Position numbers and translations under genes: made by a program
From: Desulfurobacterium sp. TC5-1
GTDB taxonomy: Bacteria > Aquificota > Aquificia > Desulfurobacteriales > Desulfurobacteriaceae
Assembly: GCF_000421485.1 (NCBI RefSeq)
Contig: NZ_ATXC01000001.1
Location: 186,001-250,000, forward strand
DNA: 64,000 bases
Direction of reading: 5' to 3'
The notes under the pieces: generated by a model
The model's database searches: none
Told to the model about the DNA's origin: nothing
What the model saw: the letters and a program-made list of their open reading frames with translations, nothing else
Shown: piece after piece, positions 4,784 to 43,203 of the stretch
Position numbering within the stretch: the stretch's first letter is position 1
Layout: every line of letters begins with the position of its first letter

Positions 4784-6150
4784 AAATAACGTTCTGTGGA
4801 GCAGCACAGGTTGTTACGGGGAGCTGTCATCTTGTAGAGACTGAAAAAACGAAGTTCCTTCTTGACTGTGGCCAGTTCCAGGGTGGTGTAGAGCTTGAAA
4901 ACCTTAACTATACGTTTCCTTTTAATCCTTCTGACGTTAGTTTTGTGATTCTTTCCCACGGACATCTTGATCACTGCGGTCGTCTTCCGCTGCTTGTTAA
5001 AAAGGGTTTTAAGGGAAAGATATATGCGACTTCCGGGACGATAGACATTGCAAGGCTTATACTGATGGATGCTGCTCAGGTTCAGGAAGAGTCGATAGAA
5101 ACAGTTAATAGAAAGAGATTGAGGGAAGGGTTGCCTCCTGTTGAGCCGCTCTTTGTTCTTGATGACGTTTTTGATGTGTTTGACTTTTTTGAGCCAATTC
5201 CTTACGGTGAGTGGGTTGAAACAGGTAATGTCAGATTTAGGTTTAGGGACGCAGGACATATTCTCTGTTCATCTTTTGTAGAGATAGAAATTGAAGGAAA
5301 AAGAGTCATCTATTCTGGAGATCTTGGAAATAAAGGAAAACCGTTTGTTCCTGATCCTTCTTATCCCGAAAAGGCGGATGTTCTGATTGTTGAGTCAACT
5401 TACGGAAACAGGGTTCATAAATCGATTGAAGAGTCTGTTGCTGAACTTAAAGAGGCGATAGTTGACACGTTTAGAAGGGGCGGTGTTGTTCTCATTCCTT
5501 CTTTTGCACTTGAACGGGCTCAGGATATTCTCTACTTTTTGAAACTTTTTATAGAGAGAGGCGAAATTCCAAGGTGTAAGGTTTTCCTTGATAGCCCTCT
5601 TGCCATTTCTATTACGAGAACTTTTAAACGTCATAGAGAGTGTTTTGATAAAGATACACTTGAACTTTTTAAGAAAGGGGATCCGTTAAATTTTTCCGGT
5701 TTAACGTTTACGCGAACCGTTGAGGAATCAATGAAGATAAATAACGTTAAGTCAAATGCCATCATAATTGCCGGTAATGGCATGTGCACTGCCGGCAGGA
5801 TTGTTCACCATTTGAGACACCATCTCTGGGATAGAAGCAGTTCCATAGTTTTTATTGGTTATCAGGCGGAAGGGACAACGGGAAGGGAAATTGTTGAAGG
5901 AAAGAAAAAGGTAAAGGTTTTTAACGAGTACATAAAGGTAAATGCAAAAGTTTACACTATTAACGGTTTTTCTTCTCATGCCGATAAACCGCAGCTTATT
6001 GATTGGATAAAAAAGGGTGTAAAAAAAGATACCCAAATTGTTCTTGTTCACGGTGAAAAAGAGGTGATGAAGGACTACAGTGAGGCTATATTAAAAGGTA
6101 CAGGGATAAAGCCGGTTGTTCCAGAACTTTATGAAACTGTAACCTTCTAA
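4780..6150 (+). CDS. Metallo-beta-lactamase/beta-CASP RNA-processing exonuclease
   Basis: Zinc-dependent nuclease of the CPSF73-like beta-CASP family, which matures or degrades RNA. The metal-binding H-G-H-L-D-H signature (His60, His62, Asp64, His65) lies in the N-terminal MBL domain. S-G-D-L-G and E-S-T-Y-G-N-R mark the MBL/beta-CASP junction, and the RNA-specificity domain ends with S-S-H-A-D and V-H-G-E motifs. No KH domain precedes it, as in bacterial YSH1-like proteins of about 450 residues. Coupled to the thioredoxin gene by a 4-nt overlap. Confidence 0.88.
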   Translation: MKITFCGAAQVVTGSCHLVETEKTKFLLDCGQFQGGVELENLNYTFPFNPSDVSFVILSHGHLDHCGRLPLLVKKGFKGKIYATSGTIDIARLILMDAAQVQEESIETVNRKRLREGLPPVEPLFVLDDVFDVFDFFEPIPYGEWVETGNVRFRFRDAGHILCSSFVEIEIEGKRVIYSGDLGNKGKPFVPDPSYPEKADVLIVESTYGNRVHKSIEESVAELKEAIVDTFRRGGVVLIPSFALERAQDILYFLKLFIERGEIPRCKVFLDSPLAISITRTFKRHRECFDKDTLELFKKGDPLNFSGLTFTRTVEESMKINNVKSNAIIIAGNGMCTAGRIVHHLRHHLWDRSSSIVFIGYQAEGTTGREIVEGKKKVKVFNEYIKVNAKVYTINGFSSHADKPQLIDWIKKGVKKDTQIVLVHGEKEVMKDYSEAILKGTGIKPVVPELYETVTF

Positions 6151-17911: not shown

Positions 17912-17945
17912 AAGAACGGGGGATTGCTCCCCGTTCTTAATAAAC
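17912..17945. terminator. Bidirectional terminator between korC and the minor-pilin operon
   Basis: A perfect 10-bp stem (17912-17921 with 17929-17938) lies between the convergent korC and the last minor-pilin gene. The A/T-rich flanks give a short T tract on both strands. The stem overlaps the stop codon of the minus-strand gene. Confidence 0.8.
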
Positions 17946-19376
17946 TTTCCATTCTTTTATCTTTCCTAAGCCGCCGTTGCTATCTATCTGATTTTTCAGT
18001 TCGCAGTATAAATCGCTATAAAAAGATGGTATTCCAAGTGCTGTTCCATTTTCACAGAAATTTTTTATCTCCTGGTATGTAAGACCGCTCGGGTTTGTGT
18101 TTTTTGCAAATTGCCATTTATCAAATGTAGCGTTACCGTCAGCAACTATCATTGCCCAGTTTCTCCCTTGGGTACCTTTACCCGTTACATGAATATTTTC
18201 TGCATATATTCCTTTGTCAGCCCAGATAATATAATTTGTTAACAGGTCTGTTTTACCGGTTTGATGAACAAGTTTTGCATTTACGTCTATTGTTCCTGGA
18301 GTGACTATAAATACATTGGATATAGTTGATGTGTCTTGTCTTCCTTTTACTTCAAGCAGTCCACCAGAACCACCTGATTTCTCTATTGATTCGCCTGCAT
18401 ATATTAATGTGTTGTATCCATTGTCAGTCTTTCCTGTGTATTTAATTTTACTGTGTGAAGAAGTTCCAAACACCAAATTTTCTCCGGCAATAATTTCAAG
18501 ATTCCATTCTGATTTGTGTCCTTTATCGGTTATTTCATTGTTTACATAGATATCTTTTTTAGCGGCTAATATTAATTGGTCTTCGTTTATTGCTGTGTTA
18601 ACGGTTATATTTTTTCCACAGATTGTTACTGTTCCATCTCTGTTTATATCTGATGGTGCTGATGATATTGTAATGTCACTATTATAGTCACCATAATCGC
18701 AAGCTGATTCGTCAGGATACAATGCAGTTGCATTGATTTCTGCAGCTTTTGGGAGATTTGGATTTGTAATACTGTGGATTTTAAAACCTATATTTTCCAG
18801 CTCTGTTTTCAGTTCCGAGTTAATTTCAGCAACTCCCATTTCTGCTTCTGTCCAGTCATCGGAATTAAGATTTCCTACATCAAATTTGCCATTTATAGAG
18901 AATGGATAGAAAGTTCCATTTGATTCTGTTACGACTTCAACGACCCTTAAACTGTTGTTTTTTTCGCCCACGGAAATAATTGTGTATGTGCCGTCAGTTC
19001 CTCTAAAAATAGCCACCTGATATTCACCATTATTTAGGTTTTGAGGTTGGGATAAATAAATTTCGCTTATTTCTCCATTATTAACTCTTGCTTGTATTTC
19101 GGAAAATCCATTTGCATTTCTTATTCTTGCAGGTAATGAGTTAATGTTTGATGGGTCTATTTCCGAGAAGCTGGTGAAATAGTTATTCTTAAGGCTTGTT
19201 AAACCGACTTCGGCACCGCTTTCTGCTAACTTTAGCGCTTCTACTGAAGACTTTGTAGAACTTGTAGATTTGGTTTCACCTGTAATCATATAAGTGGCAA
19301 CTGCACCGGCAACACTTAAAACAGCAAGCACACCTAATACAGCTGCCAAGACCATTCCTCTTTTTTCTCTTTTCAT
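17937..19376 (-). CDS. PilX-like minor pilin, large paralogue 3
   Basis: About 479 residues. The N-terminus M-K-R-E-K-R-G then M-V-L-A-A-V-L-G is a type IV prepilin signal with Gly at -1. No Glu is at +5, as in PilX/GspK-type minor pilins. The A-E-S-G-A-E motif follows the helix. The body is rich in short hydrophobic strands, suggesting a beta-rich domain. D-I-N-R-D-G near residues 243-248 looks like a calcium loop. The end shares its Cys-containing helix and W-K-V-Y tail with the next two genes. The frame extends upstream to 19445, but the prepilin start with an AAGGG site is preferred. Possibly a pilus-tip subunit. Confidence 0.8.
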   Translation of the reverse strand: MKREKRGMVLAAVLGVLAVLSVAGAVATYMITGETKSTSSTKSSVEALKLAESGAEVGLTSLKNNYFTSFSEIDPSNINSLPARIRNANGFSEIQARVNNGEISEIYLSQPQNLNNGEYQVAIFRGTDGTYTIISVGEKNNSLRVVEVVTESNGTFYPFSINGKFDVGNLNSDDWTEAEMGVAEINSELKTELENIGFKIHSITNPNLPKAAEINATALYPDESACDYGDYNSDITISSAPSDINRDGTVTICGKNITVNTAINEDQLILAAKKDIYVNNEITDKGHKSEWNLEIIAGENLVFGTSSHSKIKYTGKTDNGYNTLIYAGESIEKSGGSGGLLEVKGRQDTSTISNVFIVTPGTIDVNAKLVHQTGKTDLLTNYIIWADKGIYAENIHVTGKGTQGRNWAMIVADGNATFDKWQFAKNTNPSGLTYQEIKNFCENGTALGIPSFYSDLYCELKNQIDSNGGLGKIKEWKVY

Positions 19377-19447
19377 TGTTCCCTTCTTTCTAAATAGGTT
19401 TTTGATTAACAATATATTAAAATCATCCTTTATGCCTATGTGCAACT

Positions 19448-20791
19448 TTAATAAACTTTCCAGGAAATTATTTTAAAATTTCCGCTTTCGCTGTCTATCT
19501 GGTTTTTAAGTTCGCAATATATATTCTTGTAGAAATCTGGAATACCAAGAGAGGTTCCGTTCGTGCAGTAATTTTCAATGTCGCTATAGGAAAGGCCGCT
19601 TCTATCTTCGCTTCCTGTAAATTGCCATTTGTCAAATGTCGCGTTTCCATCGGCAACGATTACTGAAAAGTTTCTAACGGTTGCTGAAGATCCACTTATA
19701 TCAAAACCACCATTTGTACTAGTTATGCCTTTATCGGCCCAGATAACAAAGTTAACGTCGTTTCTTGTTGTTGCTGTATCGTCTATTAAGTCTCTGTTTA
19801 CATTTATTTCGCCAGGTGTAAGTAAAAAGACGTTTGAGACATTGCTTGTGTTTTGATTACCTGAGATAGATATCCACTGCCCTGTTGTATCAGGGCTTTC
19901 TATTTCTTGCCCTGCGTAAATAAGGATATTGTAGCCGTCATCTGCACCGGAAAAGTCAATAACACTGTTTCTATCAAAGTAAGCAGTATTTCCGGCGATG
20001 ATACTTAAATTAGAAGCACTGCCTACATCTTTCTTAAGGGTTGTATTACGGGTGAACGTAACGTTTTGTTTTGCAGCTATTGTCGTATCAAGGCTGAAAT
20101 TAATTAAGCTTCTATCTAAAGTAACGTTACTTCCGCAAATAACAATTTTTCCATCACCGTTAACATCAGCAAGATCCTTGAAGCTTATTGTTTCATCTGT
20201 TTCATAATTTCCGTAGTCGCAGATGGATTCTGGAGGATAGAATGATGAAGCGTTAATACTTGACACTTTTGGAAGATCTAAAATGTTTGATTTTATTATT
20301 TGAAATCCAGAAGATGTGAGAGCAGATTCTGTAGAAGGGTCTATTGCTTTAACTCCAACTACAGCGTCACTCCAACTTCCAGAACCTGTATCTTTAAAGG
20401 TATTTATAGTTAAATCACCGTTTATTGCAAATGGGTAAAAAGTACTTTCCCTTTTGATAAGAACTATGATTTTTCTTGAAACCGTTTTAAGGTTCCCTAC
20501 GGAAGTTAACTCTATAGTGTTGTTAACATTTTTTACAATTGTTACCATAAAGTCTGCATTTCCAAGTGTTCCGTTAATTATTGTTGGGAACACGTTTCCG
20601 CCGCTTTTAAGCCATGCAAGGCCCGTTTCCGCTCCACTTTCTGCAGCTTTAAGTGCGATAACGGCATCTTTAGTTTCTTTTGTTCCTTTTGTTTCTCTAT
20701 TTATTAGGTAAGATGTTACACCCCCAATAACAGAAAGAATAGCAATCACACCAAGAGTCACTTCGAGAACAAGGGCTTTCCTTTTTTTCAT
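19448..20791 (-). CDS. PilX-like minor pilin, large paralogue 2
   Basis: 447 residues. The signal is M-K-K-R-K-A then L-V-L-E-V-T-L-G, so the -1 position is Ala rather than Gly and a Glu lies at +4. The PilX-type A-A-E-S-G-A-E-T-G-L-A-W-L follows. A calcium-loop-like D-V-N-G-D-G is near residues 209-214. The C-terminal 65 residues closely match paralogue 3 (F-D-K-W-Q-F, S-G-L-S-Y, C-E-L-K-N-Q-I, W-K-V-Y). GGGGAA lies before the ATG. Paralogues 2 and 3 look like a tandem duplication. Confidence 0.8.
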   Translation of the reverse strand: MKKRKALVLEVTLGVIAILSVIGGVTSYLINRETKGTKETKDAVIALKAAESGAETGLAWLKSGGNVFPTIINGTLGNADFMVTIVKNVNNTIELTSVGNLKTVSRKIIVLIKRESTFYPFAINGDLTINTFKDTGSGSWSDAVVGVKAIDPSTESALTSSGFQIIKSNILDLPKVSSINASSFYPPESICDYGNYETDETISFKDLADVNGDGKIVICGSNVTLDRSLINFSLDTTIAAKQNVTFTRNTTLKKDVGSASNLSIIAGNTAYFDRNSVIDFSGADDGYNILIYAGQEIESPDTTGQWISISGNQNTSNVSNVFLLTPGEINVNRDLIDDTATTRNDVNFVIWADKGITSTNGGFDISGSSATVRNFSVIVADGNATFDKWQFTGSEDRSGLSYSDIENYCTNGTSLGIPDFYKNIYCELKNQIDSESGNFKIISWKVY

Positions 20792-20860
20792 TTTTTTCCC
20801 CGAAAGCAGTTTTACTTTTATTAATTAATATATAACCCCTCACATCGTGGAAGTAAAATA

Positions 20861-22459
20861 TTAATAAACTTTCCAGCTGTTGATTTTGACACTTTGGAAT
20901 GCTTGAGTTTCAATTAGGTTTTTCAGTTCACATATAAAATCTGCTACCGGACTGTTGATTGAGCTTGTGTAGTTGCACCACTTAACTATTTCATCATAGT
21001 TTAATCCACTTCTATATTCTCTTCCTGAGAAAAACATATCGCCAAGAGTAAGGTTGCCGGATGTTAAGAAACCAATGTATCTTGTTTCATCTTCTGAATT
21101 AGCAACGTATTTTATGTCACCAACGTTGATATCGCCGTCTGACCACACCAGGAGATCAAGCCATTCTTTTCCACTCACGTTTATAAAGTTTGTATCACCT
21201 ACATCGATACCGTTTTGGGAGATTACGACCACACTGCTTGTAGCATCTGGGTTTGTTGATTCATAACCGGATATATCAAAAAGGTATGTTCCTGAGGAGC
21301 CTTTAAAAGATGTGTCTGTTAGATCGCTTAAAATTTGATCGCCTGCATATACTACAACCTGGTAGTCCTCGCTTTTTCCGGTTAGCTGAACTTCATTATT
21401 AAGATATATATTCCCCTCTTTAGCTATTATTTCTACATTTTTTTCATCACCTGCATACAGGTGAATATCGTTGTTTATGTTGATGTTTCCGCTTTCAGAA
21501 ATTAAACTTAGGTTCACAGTATCAATATCTCCTATTGCTGCATCAATGTTAATGTCGTTTTCTGCCTGAAGAACCAGAGGAAGGGCTACAGAACTTGCAG
21601 ATATAGGTTCCGGAACTGTAATGCTGCCACTGGTGTTACATATAACTATTCTGCCATCTCCATTTGTATCTGTTACCGGGACATCTGTTCCACCTGAAAT
21701 AACAGCAGTGAGTTTGGAAGTTTTTGGACCCGGACCCGAGGTGGTGGTAGTATATACTTGAGTTACACCATCAATATCACAGGTGTATGAGGGGAGCGTA
21801 ACGTTTGCATCCCCTACGGAAGGGATAAATGCGTCGCTGTTATCTTGAGTAAGAGGTGTCAAGTTAGCCTCTGCCTCGGGTGTGATAGTTCCGTTTGGTC
21901 CAACGGCAAAGGTAACGTTCCAGCTTGAAGCATCAATGGTAGAGTTGAATGTGGGACAGAAATCGAATCCGGTTCCTGTCCAGAATACAGTTTGGTTTGT
22001 CCATACTCTTGAGCCTGGACGTCCTAAGTTGTCAAAGTTACATATTGTTAGTGTTCCAGCCGCGGCGAAAGATTTTATTTCGCCGCTTTCTTTCTCAGCG
22101 TTGATGATAATGGTTCTGTGATTACCGTTAAATGTTCCTACTGATGTTATCGTGTAGGTACCGTTTGCATTTTCTTTAATTATTGTAGTGTAGTTTCCGT
22201 TGGTGATGTTTCCGGTTATCTGGTAGGTGGAAGGGTCTATTTGTGTTAAGGTATTAAGGTCATTTTGCTTTATGTGGGAAAGAGCAATTTCAGCGCCGGA
22301 TTCAGCAATTCTCAAAGCCGATGTGGATTCTTTTGTGCTTTTTGTTCCGGAGGTCTCCTTGCTTATAAGGTAGGTCGCTATTCCACCTGCTATTGATAAG
22401 ACTGTTATAACTCCCAGAGTTGTTATAAGTACAAACCCTTTTCTTATACGCTTTTTCAT
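20861..22459 (-). CDS. PilX-like minor pilin, large paralogue 1
   Basis: 532 residues, the longest and most divergent of the three. The signal is M-K-K-R-I-R-K-G then F-V-L-I-T-T-L-G, without Glu+5. I-A-E-S-G-A-E-I-A-L follows the helix. A D-T-N-G-D-G loop is near 264-269. The middle has repeated strand-like I-N-I/L-N-N segments that resemble a beta-solenoid, and the tail keeps S-G-L-N-Y, C-E-L-K-N and W-K-V-Y. AGGAGA precedes the ATG. The length is well above the usual 170-200 residues of PilX, so these are PilX-like only at the N-terminus. Confidence 0.8.
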   Translation of the reverse strand: MKKRIRKGFVLITTLGVITVLSIAGGIATYLISKETSGTKSTKESTSALRIAESGAEIALSHIKQNDLNTLTQIDPSTYQITGNITNGNYTTIIKENANGTYTITSVGTFNGNHRTIIINAEKESGEIKSFAAAGTLTICNFDNLGRPGSRVWTNQTVFWTGTGFDFCPTFNSTIDASSWNVTFAVGPNGTITPEAEANLTPLTQDNSDAFIPSVGDANVTLPSYTCDIDGVTQVYTTTTSGPGPKTSKLTAVISGGTDVPVTDTNGDGRIVICNTSGSITVPEPISASSVALPLVLQAENDINIDAAIGDIDTVNLSLISESGNININNDIHLYAGDEKNVEIIAKEGNIYLNNEVQLTGKSEDYQVVVYAGDQILSDLTDTSFKGSSGTYLFDISGYESTNPDATSSVVVISQNGIDVGDTNFINVSGKEWLDLLVWSDGDINVGDIKYVANSEDETRYIGFLTSGNLTLGDMFFSGREYRSGLNYDEIVKWCNYTSSINSPVADFICELKNLIETQAFQSVKINSWKVY

Positions 22460-22482
22460 GGTCTTCTCCTGAAATGCCGGGT

Positions 22483-23055
22483 TTACCAGTTCCTGCAGAT
22501 TACTTCATCACCAATTGTGAAGCTTTTATCTTTTACTTTTCCAGATATAGTGTATGAAACGGTATGATTTGTAGAATCAACAGTAACGTTGAATGTATCT
22601 ACTGTTACGATATTACTGTCGAACATGGATGCACCAGTACCTGTTCCTGTAGCATTCTGGTAAACCCTTCTTATGATATTGTTGCTGTTTAAGTAATATT
22701 CAATTTTATATTTACATACCGGATTTGCGGTACTCCATGTTTGATTGTCACAATTGTTCGCAGTATCTGTATAGTCTATATAGTATATAGTTAGTGGATC
22801 GGTAGCACTTCCGTTTCCACTAACAGGTGTTATTCCTGCGGCGGCCACACCTCCATATCCTGCTTTTCTTAAATCTGAATCTATGATTTCTACAACATTA
22901 AATACAGATATGTTGCCTCTGGAGGTTTTCATGGTCGTATCAAGCTGCTTGTATCCATAAGAGAAAAAAATAACAGCAGCAGCCATAATGATGATGCCTA
23001 TCACCATGGCTACTACAACTTCTAAGAGTGTAAATCCTGACCTTGAAGTTTTCAT
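22483..23055 (-). CDS. PilW-like minor pilin
   Basis: 190 residues with a canonical type IV prepilin start: M-K-T-S-R-S-G then F-T-L-L-E-V-V-V-A, Glu at +5. The I-I-D-S-D-L-R-K-A-G-Y-G-G segment after the helix is characteristic of PilW-type proteins. Its start overlaps the stop of the PilV-like gene by one base. It ends with C-R-N-W. Predicted inner-membrane minor pilin that joins the pilus-priming complex. Confidence 0.82.
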   Translation of the reverse strand: MKTSRSGFTLLEVVVAMVIGIIIMAAAVIFFSYGYKQLDTTMKTSRGNISVFNVVEIIDSDLRKAGYGGVAAAGITPVSGNGSATDPLTIYYIDYTDTANNCDNQTWSTANPVCKYKIEYYLNSNNIIRRVYQNATGTGTGASMFDSNIVTVDTFNVTVDSTNHTVSYTISGKVKDKSFTIGDEVICRNW

Positions 23056-23447
23056 TACCAGTTTCCTTTTATATATTCTAATGTAACATTTCCGTGGTAG
23101 TTTTGGTATGAAAAATTGCTGATTACCTTTATCTTTTTGGTATTTGGATCCACTCCATTGTCAACTATCCATTCGATATTGGCATCACCGCTGAATCCAT
23201 CACAGCATGTATAAGGATCGTTGTCACAGGTCTCATCAGTTCCTACAGTTAGGCAGGGATCAGTATAGTTGAGGCTTGCAAGGTGTTCAAGAACTTTGTT
23301 GGCTTTATAAAGAGCTGCTTCTCTTTCCTGGTTTATTTTTGAGTATTTAATGTTAAATATAATAAGCATACCTATTCCGAGTATTGCGATAGCAAATATA
23401 GCCATTGCTATTAAAGTTTCAACGACAGTAAAACCTTCCTTTTTCAA
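23055..23447 (-). CDS. PilV-like minor pilin
   Basis: 130 residues. Prepilin signal M-K-K-E-G then F-T-V-V-E-T-L-I-A-M, Glu at +5, followed by a hydrophobic helix and an A-L-Y-K-A-N-K segment as in PilV/GspI proteins. Four cysteines cluster in the middle and may form disulfides. Ends with G-N-W. Translationally coupled to the PilW-like gene and 1 nt after the FimT-like gene. Confidence 0.8.
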   Translation of the reverse strand: MKKEGFTVVETLIAMAIFAIAILGIGMLIIFNIKYSKINQEREAALYKANKVLEHLASLNYTDPCLTVGTDETCDNDPYTCCDGFSGDANIEWIVDNGVDPNTKKIKVISNFSYQNYHGNVTLEYIKGNW

Positions 23448-23448
23448 T

Positions 23449-23928
23449 TTATAACCTCTGCAAATAGATTCTTCCGCTCGTTTGATTTACGGTTATTCTA
23501 TAAGATATTCCATATCCGGAAATGTCAATGTGCCCGCTCGGATAAAGGAGTTTATTCCTTTTAAAAGCAACGATAGGTAAAGCTGTTGGAAGAGTGCCAT
23601 TAAAATCGTCTGTTATAGAAAGACTAAAAACAGGTGTTAGCGTTATTTCACTGGGGAGAGAGACCTGTTTTATCAATACAGGGGTGGCACCGGAACCGTA
23701 AGGAGCAGCTATGTAATAAGCGTTGGTATCAAAAGCTACAGCACTTCCACCTTTTTCCATTGCAAGGCTCTGTGCCCACATTAAGTCAGAAGTAAGTTCT
23801 TCTGCAGTTTGCTTAACTTTAATTTGGTGTATCCATGTACTTATTCGAGGAACTGCTATAGCTGATAAAACTGCCACTATAGCAATGGCCACAATTAATT
23901 CAGTAAGGGTAAATCCTCTGTTTTTCAT
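23449..23928 (-). CDS. FimT/GspH-like minor pilin
   Basis: 159 residues. Prepilin signal M-K-N-R-G then F-T-L-T-E-L-I-V-A-I-A-I, Glu at +5. The following T-A-E-E-L-T-S-D-L-M-W-A-Q-S-L-A-M-E segment is the GspH/FimT hallmark, and a beta-rich C-terminus follows. First gene of a six-gene minor-pilin operon. TATAAT-like hexamers on the minus strand near 23985-24000 may include its promoter. No pilus motor or major pilin gene is nearby. Confidence 0.85.
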   Translation of the reverse strand: MKNRGFTLTELIVAIAIVAVLSAIAVPRISTWIHQIKVKQTAEELTSDLMWAQSLAMEKGGSAVAFDTNAYYIAAPYGSGATPVLIKQVSLPSEITLTPVFSLSITDDFNGTLPTALPIVAFKRNKLLYPSGHIDISGYGISYRITVNQTSGRIYLQRL

Positions 23929-39851: not shown

Positions 39852-39938
39852 TGGTGCGGGAGGCGGGATTTGAACCCGCACGCCCGTAAGGGCACTGCCC
39901 CCTCAAGACAGCGCGTCTGCCGATTCCGCCACTCCCGC
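39852..39938 (-). tRNA. tRNA-Leu (GAG anticodon)
   Basis: On the minus strand, acceptor stem GCGGGAG pairs with CTCCCGC, followed by discriminator A and an encoded CCA. The anticodon loop TTGAGGG sits on a CTGTC/GGCAG stem, giving anticodon GAG (Leu, CUC/CUU). A long variable arm and GGTTCAAATCC T-arm are present, as expected for class II tRNA-Leu. Confidence 0.97.
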
Positions 39939-41968: not shown

Positions 41969-42023
41969 AAGTTTTAGAAATATAAGTTTTTTTTAAGTTA
42001 AAACCCCATAACAAGGAGGTATC

Positions 42024-43145
42024 ATGCGTACGAAATTTGCCTCGTTGCTTGCTGCAGGTGTCTTCATTTTAGCCGGTTGTGGAGGAGGCGGAGAAACGGT
42101 AACTCCGCCAACAGGTGCAAATGAAACAGTTTCAATTACACTTTCTCCTGGGGCAACAGTTACAAAAACCGTGACTGTTGATTTGCCAGATCCGGAAACG
42201 GGTGATGTTGGTGTGGATGTTCTGTGGCTTGTTGATTTGAGTGGAAGTTTTGGAGATGACCTTTCTACGTGGCAGAACAATACGGAAGCGATTGTAAATG
42301 CCCTTAAAACGAAGATAAGCGATTTAAGGGTGGGGCTTGCAAGTTTCGTGGATGCTCCGTGCAGTGACTTCGGCTGGACCGGTGATTACGGTTACAAGCT
42401 TGAGCTACCTTTGACTTCTAACTTTACGGCATTTTCTGAAAAGGTTGATAATTTAACTATTTATAGCGGAAATGATTATCCGGAAGCTCAGTTAGAAGCC
42501 ATGTATCAGGCTATAACAGGTGAAGGTGTTGTTTGTAACGGTACATGTGAAAATGCCACGATAAACGCAACGGATCCGGGATGGGGAGCCGGCAGGATTC
42601 ATCTTCTCGTTGTTTCTACGGATGCTGCATTCCACAGGCCAACAGATGTAGGTTCAGATGGAACTCCTTATCCTTATCCGGCAAATGTTACAGATGTGAT
42701 AGATGCTGCAAACAGTACCGGTGTAAGTATCAGTTTCCTTTTCGCAGGATATGACTACGACTGGGATGGTAATTATACAGTTGATGATATTTATCAAATA
42801 GAACCTGCTACTGGAGAGATAGCAAATGCAACTCACGGTATAGTTTATACTATGAGCAGTAACAGCTCAGAAATTGTTGCGGCTCTTGAGTCTCTTGCCA
42901 ACGCTACAGTTGGAAATGCAACAGTTGAACTTGTTCCGGTTGGTGATACCTATGGAATTATTGCTTCGATTTCACCGTCTGTTTTAACCGGCATTGATCT
43001 TACTTCAACAGATAAGGTTGATTTCACGGTTACGTTTACCGCTCCAGCAGGGACTTCTCTACCTTCAAGTATCGATTTCTATTTAGTGGTTAAGGTGGAA
43101 GGATCAGAAATTTATCGGATTCCAGTACATGTTGTAATAAGTTAA
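42024..43145 (+). CDS. vWA lipoprotein with an integrin-beta-like I domain
   Basis: 373 residues. The signal peptide ends in the lipobox L-A-G-C (Cys19), so it is a predicted lipoprotein. A vWA domain (about 65-305) has the MIDAS motif D-L-S-G-S. Order and motifs match integrin beta I-like domains: D-V-L-W-L-V-D-L-S, R-V-G-L-A-S-F-V-D, P-E-A-Q-L-E-A, S-T-D-A-A-F-H and S-S-N-S-S-E-I-V. A short beta domain follows. 14 N-x-S/T sequons occur. AAGGAGG precedes the ATG and a strong terminator follows. A surface adhesion role is an inference. Confidence 0.8.
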   Translation: MRTKFASLLAAGVFILAGCGGGGETVTPPTGANETVSITLSPGATVTKTVTVDLPDPETGDVGVDVLWLVDLSGSFGDDLSTWQNNTEAIVNALKTKISDLRVGLASFVDAPCSDFGWTGDYGYKLELPLTSNFTAFSEKVDNLTIYSGNDYPEAQLEAMYQAITGEGVVCNGTCENATINATDPGWGAGRIHLLVVSTDAAFHRPTDVGSDGTPYPYPANVTDVIDAANSTGVSISFLFAGYDYDWDGNYTVDDIYQIEPATGEIANATHGIVYTMSSNSSEIVAALESLANATVGNATVELVPVGDTYGIIASISPSVLTGIDLTSTDKVDFTVTFTAPAGTSLPSSIDFYLVVKVEGSEIYRIPVHVVIS

Positions 43146-43174
43146 GTGTTTCTTGTAAATTCTGTAGTTGTGAG

Positions 43175-43203
43175 AAAGGGCACCTTCGGGTGCCCTTTTT
43201 TTA
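43175..43203 (+). terminator. Strong rho-independent terminator
   Basis: A perfect 10-bp stem (43175-43184 with 43189-43198) with a stable TTCG tetraloop and a run of Ts follows the lipoprotein gene. Confidence 0.95.

Follow-up and report, generated by a model that had tools for sequence, protein, structure and literature searches.

A predicted lipoprotein of the Aquificota with homology to the integrin beta headpiece

The window, a stretch of 64,000 nucleotides from the genome of Desulfurobacterium sp. TC5-1 (contig NZ_ATXC01000001.1, positions 186,001 to 250,000), contains a single gene for an integrin-beta-headpiece-like lipoprotein, whose features are collected in Table 1. The gene lies between pyrF, which is divergent from it on the upstream side, and an aconitase gene from which it is separated by an intrinsic terminator. 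This arrangement indicates an independent transcription unit, as the initial annotation had proposed. The predicted tether also agrees with that annotation, with a lipobox of the form ...FILAGC19 in the window protein and LFAGC in its orthologue. The genome (G000) is 1.65 Mb in four contigs and 99.77% complete. Genes of the reverse-TCA type and of the hydrogenase type within the window are consistent with an autotrophic, apparently chemolithoautotrophic host, a thermophile of vents. Elsewhere in the window a tRNA-Leu (gag) gene (39852-39938, minus strand) adjoins an iron-type alcohol dehydrogenase gene, two genes away from the lipoprotein gene, and a minor-pilin-like cluster (17937-23928, minus strand) encodes three successive large PilX-like proteins of 502, 447 and 532 amino acids. 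Two of these proteins were scanned and have no Pfam match, yet they are apparently related to each other.

Table 1. Features of the lipoprotein gene and its product, in window coordinates
Feature	Position	Strand	Basis
Integrin-beta-headpiece-like lipoprotein gene, 373 aa	42024..43145	+	ORF; Pfam Integrin_beta E 1.1e-16
Ribosome-binding site AGGAGG	42014..42019	+	Read directly in the sequence
Predicted lipoprotein signal peptide with lipobox LAGC and lipidation at Cys19	42024..42080	+	Translation; predicted by the lipobox rule
N-terminal half of split hybrid (Ig-like) domain, residues 33-57	42120..42194	+	Beta-6 profile alignment starts here; strands 34-38 and 45-53 in weak model
I-like (vWA-type) domain, residues 65-297	42216..42914	+	Pfam, profile alignments; alpha/beta order in weak domain model
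MIDAS motif D71-L-S73-G-S75	42234..42248	+	Aligned to beta-3 D119/S121/S123
ADMIDAS residues D78, D79	42255..42260	+	Aligned to beta-3 D126/D127, identical spacing
SyMBS/LIMBS residue D110	42351..42353	+	Aligned to beta-3 D158
G149-N-D151-Y-P153-E154, SyMBS and MIDAS ligands	42468..42485	+	Aligned to beta-3 N215/D217/P219/E220
D200, equivalent of beta-3 D251	42621..42623	+	Alignment
C-terminal half of hybrid-like domain, residues 299-372	42918..43139	+	Profile reaches beta-6 residue 403; strands in weak model
Intrinsic terminator, strong stem-loop and T-run	43172..43201	+	Between lipoprotein gene and aconitase gene

Sequence and profile comparisons indicate that the window protein is very probably homologous to the integrin beta headpiece. 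The Pfam Integrin_beta model (PF00362) scores 61.8 bits against it and 54.7 bits against the orthologue, with a cut-off of 24.8 bits, whereas the generic VWA model (PF00092) reaches 13.2 bits, under its curated cut-off of 23.8 bits, and VWA_2 and VWA_4 also remain under their Pfam cut-offs. A phmmer search of all PDB sequences with the window protein returns 59 matches, every one of them an animal integrin beta chain. A profile built from four Aquificota sequences aligns collinearly with integrin beta-6 in one stretch (residues 79-403, E 4.5e-21), and its top match outside the integrins is collagen VI (E 2.8e-5). The beta-6 alignment runs through a hybrid strand, the I-like domain and the hybrid domain, so that it begins before and ends after the I-like domain. 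When eight bacterial members are compared with beta-1, beta-2 and beta-3 by hhalign, 239 columns align (E 8.8e-24), in contrast to 126 columns (E 2.5e-10), confined to the I-like domain, for ordinary bacterial GGGDxPE vWA proteins; in these comparisons the beta-1 query matches the PDB letter for letter, and the beta-2 and beta-3 queries were checked only for consistent matches. A profile of only two sequences from the window group gives 1.6e-15 to the integrins versus 1.2e-16 to the bacterial GGGDxPE group, and the protein is thus related to both. The genome as a whole contains no match to PF00092, a model that is matched by a vWA protein in 11 of the 14 control genomes.

The motifs on which the initial annotation based its likeness to integrin beta occur in the order claimed: DLSGS (71-75), RVGLASFVD (102-110), PEAQLEA (153-159), STDAAFH (198-204) and SSNSSEIV (278-285). 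Its view that the resemblance goes beyond a generic vWA domain is borne out by the Pfam and PDB matches and by an alignment that continues past both ends of the I-like domain into hybrid sequence. It had also called for the metal ligands to be checked, which was done by alignment. The MIDAS residues are complete (D71, S73, S75, E154 and D200, corresponding to beta-3 D119, S121, S123, E220 and D251) and the ADMIDAS pair is present. At the SyMBS, or LIMBS, D110, D151, P153 and E154 correspond to beta-3 D158, D217, P219 and E220, and three of the four side chains are kept, N215 being replaced by glycine (G149). The integrin-specific insertion, a specificity-determining loop closed in integrins by the C177-C184 disulfide, is deleted in the window protein and missing in all bacteria compared. 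The protein stops after the hybrid-like strands. It has no PSI, EGF or beta-tail domain, no transmembrane helix and no NPxY tail, nor any Pfam match beyond the I-like domain, and no FG-GAP (PF01839) propeller of the alpha type is found in the 99.77% complete genome. With the specificity loop, the PSI, EGF and transmembrane parts, the NPxY tail and an alpha partner all absent, it is a homologue of the integrin beta headpiece and not an integrin.

Several comparisons bear on the hybrid domain. A profile of the bacterial C-terminal half scores against beta-1, beta-3 and beta-6 at a level reached by 0 to 1 of 1000 shuffled sequences, and against beta-2 at a level reached by 138 of 1000. In the reverse direction, an integrin C-half profile is matched by 81 of 1000 shuffles as highly as by the real C half of the window protein. 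Searching the PDB with the two hybrid halves alone finds nothing. A homologue from Vibrio gigantis finds the integrins independently, and a separate second stretch of its alignment covers beta-6 329-413, which belongs to the hybrid domain. AlphaFold2 was run on an alignment of two sequences, the window protein and one orthologue, and gives models of low confidence, with a mean pLDDT of 37 for the full-length protein and 43 for the domain. In the full-length model, confidence is highest in strands 34-53 and in the region 299-372. Compared with the hybrid region of beta-8, this model superposes over 88 residues between positions 31 and 371 (22% identity, Z 6.7), a score tied with many Ig-like folds, and the domain model fits TFIIH p34/p44, vWF A1 and integrin beta-3 about equally. 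In structure searches these low-confidence models show one Ig-like and one vWA portion, and integrin beta is one of several matches with tied scores, a result compatible with the integrin fold that does not establish it. The shuffle result for the window protein's own C half and the empty PDB search speak against a hybrid domain; the other lines, each of them modest, are consistent with one that the I-like domain divides in two.

The gene has a patchy distribution, with a match in 5 of 136 Aquificota genomes. In one genome of the same genus (G125) the orthologue lies, as in the window, between pyrF and aconitase and is broken by two insertions, an IS3-type element with HTH_Tnp_1 and rve ORFs and a Mutator-family transposase (L016, G125:C46, 54-1747; L015, G125:C14, 8792-10001). 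A second genome (G126) has the orthologue L002 (5977-7080) between the type II secretion gene gspG and a DUF2062 gene. The corresponding site is empty in the window genome, where it measures about 140 bp (L107, G000:C2:98000-108000, 5746-5888), which means that the position of the gene varies among members of the genus. A third genome (G124) lacks the orthologue, and its gspG-DUF2062 site is occupied by an unrelated ORF. The differing loci, this absence and the broken copy in G125 indicate that the gene either relocates or is acquired anew, and that its function is dispensable. A conserved operon partner was considered and rejected, since the neighbours differ between loci.

More distant relatives are scattered. 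L018 comes from another family of the Aquificota, and another genus of the same family has a lipoprotein of 1316 amino acids with an integrin-beta-like vWA domain near its C-terminus (L017, G122:C85, 1122-5072, minus strand). Beyond the Aquificota, two members (L034 and L038) have the same layout as the window protein. On plasmid p1 of Vibrio gigantis (NZ_AP025494.1) the homologue forms the C-terminal part of a subtilase (31% identity, 88% query coverage), and a Rhodobacteraceae (alphaproteobacterial) plasmid has a relative inside an M10/RTX metalloprotease; these fusions point to secreted, surface-acting proteins. No relative is found in the viral contigs or phage records searched. The Vibrio ORF (L063, 2-2029), which combines a subtilase with an integrin-beta-like headpiece, is without a gene entry in the PLSDB table and adjoins several proteins with Ig-like domains. 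In another genome a stop-free frame of 22286 residues contains a vWA domain of the wider class (L045/L082, G163:C2).

The features that can be read directly, namely the homology to the headpiece, the conserved metal ligands, the lipobox, the single-gene unit and the lack of an FG-GAP propeller, lead to a reading of the window protein as a metal-dependent, lipid-anchored, single-chain surface adhesin that operates without an alpha subunit, to which we assign a probability of roughly 55%. In such an adhesin the I-like domain, set within the split Ig-like (hybrid) domain and tethered by the lipid anchor, would be displayed at the cell exterior or would face the periplasm from the outer membrane. 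The ligand would be bound by one of its acidic groups through a divalent metal in the MIDAS, calcium ions at the ADMIDAS and SyMBS would tune the affinity, and the hybrid domain, which adjoins the helix that ends the I-like domain, could serve as a lever. As no alpha subunit is present, the protein would be expected to work by itself, in the manner proposed for SibA of Dictyostelium.

vWA domains have non-adhesive roles too. Assembly factors are common among bacterial vWA proteins and lipoproteins are often periplasmic, and it is possible, though distinctly less probable than adhesion, that the protein is a secreted or periplasmic scaffold whose MIDAS assembles or recruits a partner in a secretion, pilus or envelope complex. 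The location of L002, which is transcribed away from the pseudopilin operon of type II secretion, favours such a role, but the secretion operon of the window genome lies elsewhere, its gspG-DUF2062 site holds no copy, no neighbour gene is conserved and, among the distant homologues, secreted proteases and RTX repeats appear as fusion partners. The same fusions, to a subtilase in Vibrio and an M10 metalloprotease in Rhodobacteraceae, are what could be expected of a module that captures peptides or matrix at the surface for degradation or uptake and has spread with secreted proteases. For the window protein this is improbable, as neither it nor its orthologue has an enzyme domain and the reverse TCA genes of the window mark the host as apparently chemolithoautotrophic. 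An ordinary bacterial vWA protein with convergent integrin-like motifs is already disfavoured and very improbable: GGGDxPE and TDA..H motifs are common to many bacterial vWA proteins and the weak domain model does not discriminate between vWA folds, but the generic models fall short of their cut-offs, the profile column coverage favours integrin beta by a wide margin, and the ADMIDAS DD pair, common to the integrins, the window protein, L002, L018, L017 and the Vibrio and Rhodobacteraceae forms, occurs in only 1 of 15 other bacterial rows compared (L059).

The window protein can be set beside three known groups. With animal integrin beta (the headpieces of beta-6, beta-3 and beta-1; PF00362) it has in common the MIDAS DxSxS, the ADMIDAS DD, the equivalents of SyMBS D158, D217 and E220, the TDA..H motif and, putatively, a hybrid domain that the I-like domain interrupts. 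It differs in its predicted lipid anchor, in the absence of an alpha subunit gene from the genome and in the lack of the specificity-loop disulfide, PSI domain, EGF repeats, beta-tail, transmembrane helix and NPxY motif. The bacterial GGGDxPE vWA proteins (VWA_4, VWA_2) have the vWA fold, the MIDAS and the equivalents of D110, D151 and E154; unlike the window protein, they have as a rule no ADMIDAS DD, match the integrin profile more weakly and do not align with the hybrid domain. The Dictyostelium proteins SibA-E (PF24909) are, like the window protein, beta-like vWA proteins without an alpha subunit, and SibA provides a precedent for adhesion without alpha chains (PMC9197732, PMC12686525). 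SibA differs in being a talin-binding transmembrane protein. PF24909 (vWA_SIBA-E) is not among the Pfam matches of the window protein (P0001) up to E 1; it is matched by the relative P0003 and by the Vibrio relative.

Propellers of the alpha type are documented in bacteria. On the beta side, the precedent met in the literature is one cyanobacterial sequence, given a passing mention: the integrin-beta-like protein of Trichodesmium erythraeum (Johnson et al. 2009, as cited in PMC3192720). The PMC3192720 passage contains no analysis of a lipobox or of metal sites, and the comparison with this protein is by description only. Earlier work on the subject includes Chouhan et al. A bacterial integrin-beta-like sequence is thus already known from Trichodesmium. 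The literature search found no paper on an integrin-beta-like protein of the Aquificota or on a lipoprotein form, and the Aquificota lipoprotein is new to the literature searched.

In a tree in which the integrins are human beta chains, beta-1, beta-2, beta-3 and beta-6 form one clade (100/100) and every bacterial sequence falls outside it. The integrins join the hybrid-type bacterial proteins and not the GGGDxPE outgroup, with weak support (58/83, 77/90). By the AU test neither a clade of the integrins with the DD-bearing bacteria (p 0.5) nor one of the DD-bearing bacteria alone (p 0.245) is rejected. A recent transfer of the gene from an animal of the vent fauna, which the patchy distribution and changing loci might suggest, is hardly credible given the position of all bacterial forms outside the human clade, the absence of every eukaryote-specific part, a base composition resembling that of the neighbouring genes and the deep diversity among the bacterial forms. 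The scattered bacterial relatives suggest an adhesion module older than animals. A further step is offered tentatively, as the odds are against it: the complete beta headpiece, in which a hybrid lever encloses an I-like domain with three metal sites, would have originated in bacteria as a module of one chain for adhesion or capture at the surface, and would be ancestral to both animal integrin beta and amoebal Sib.

The window protein points to a scattered bacterial family that includes secreted proteases. It raises the question whether MIDAS, ADMIDAS and hybrid-domain coupling can operate when alpha chain, EGF legs and cytoskeleton are all missing, a question that a minimal, soluble, thermophilic beta headpiece lacking an alpha subunit would open directly to experiment. 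Should the bacterial origin prove true, metal-tuned, lever-type control of affinity would predate the alpha/beta heterodimer.
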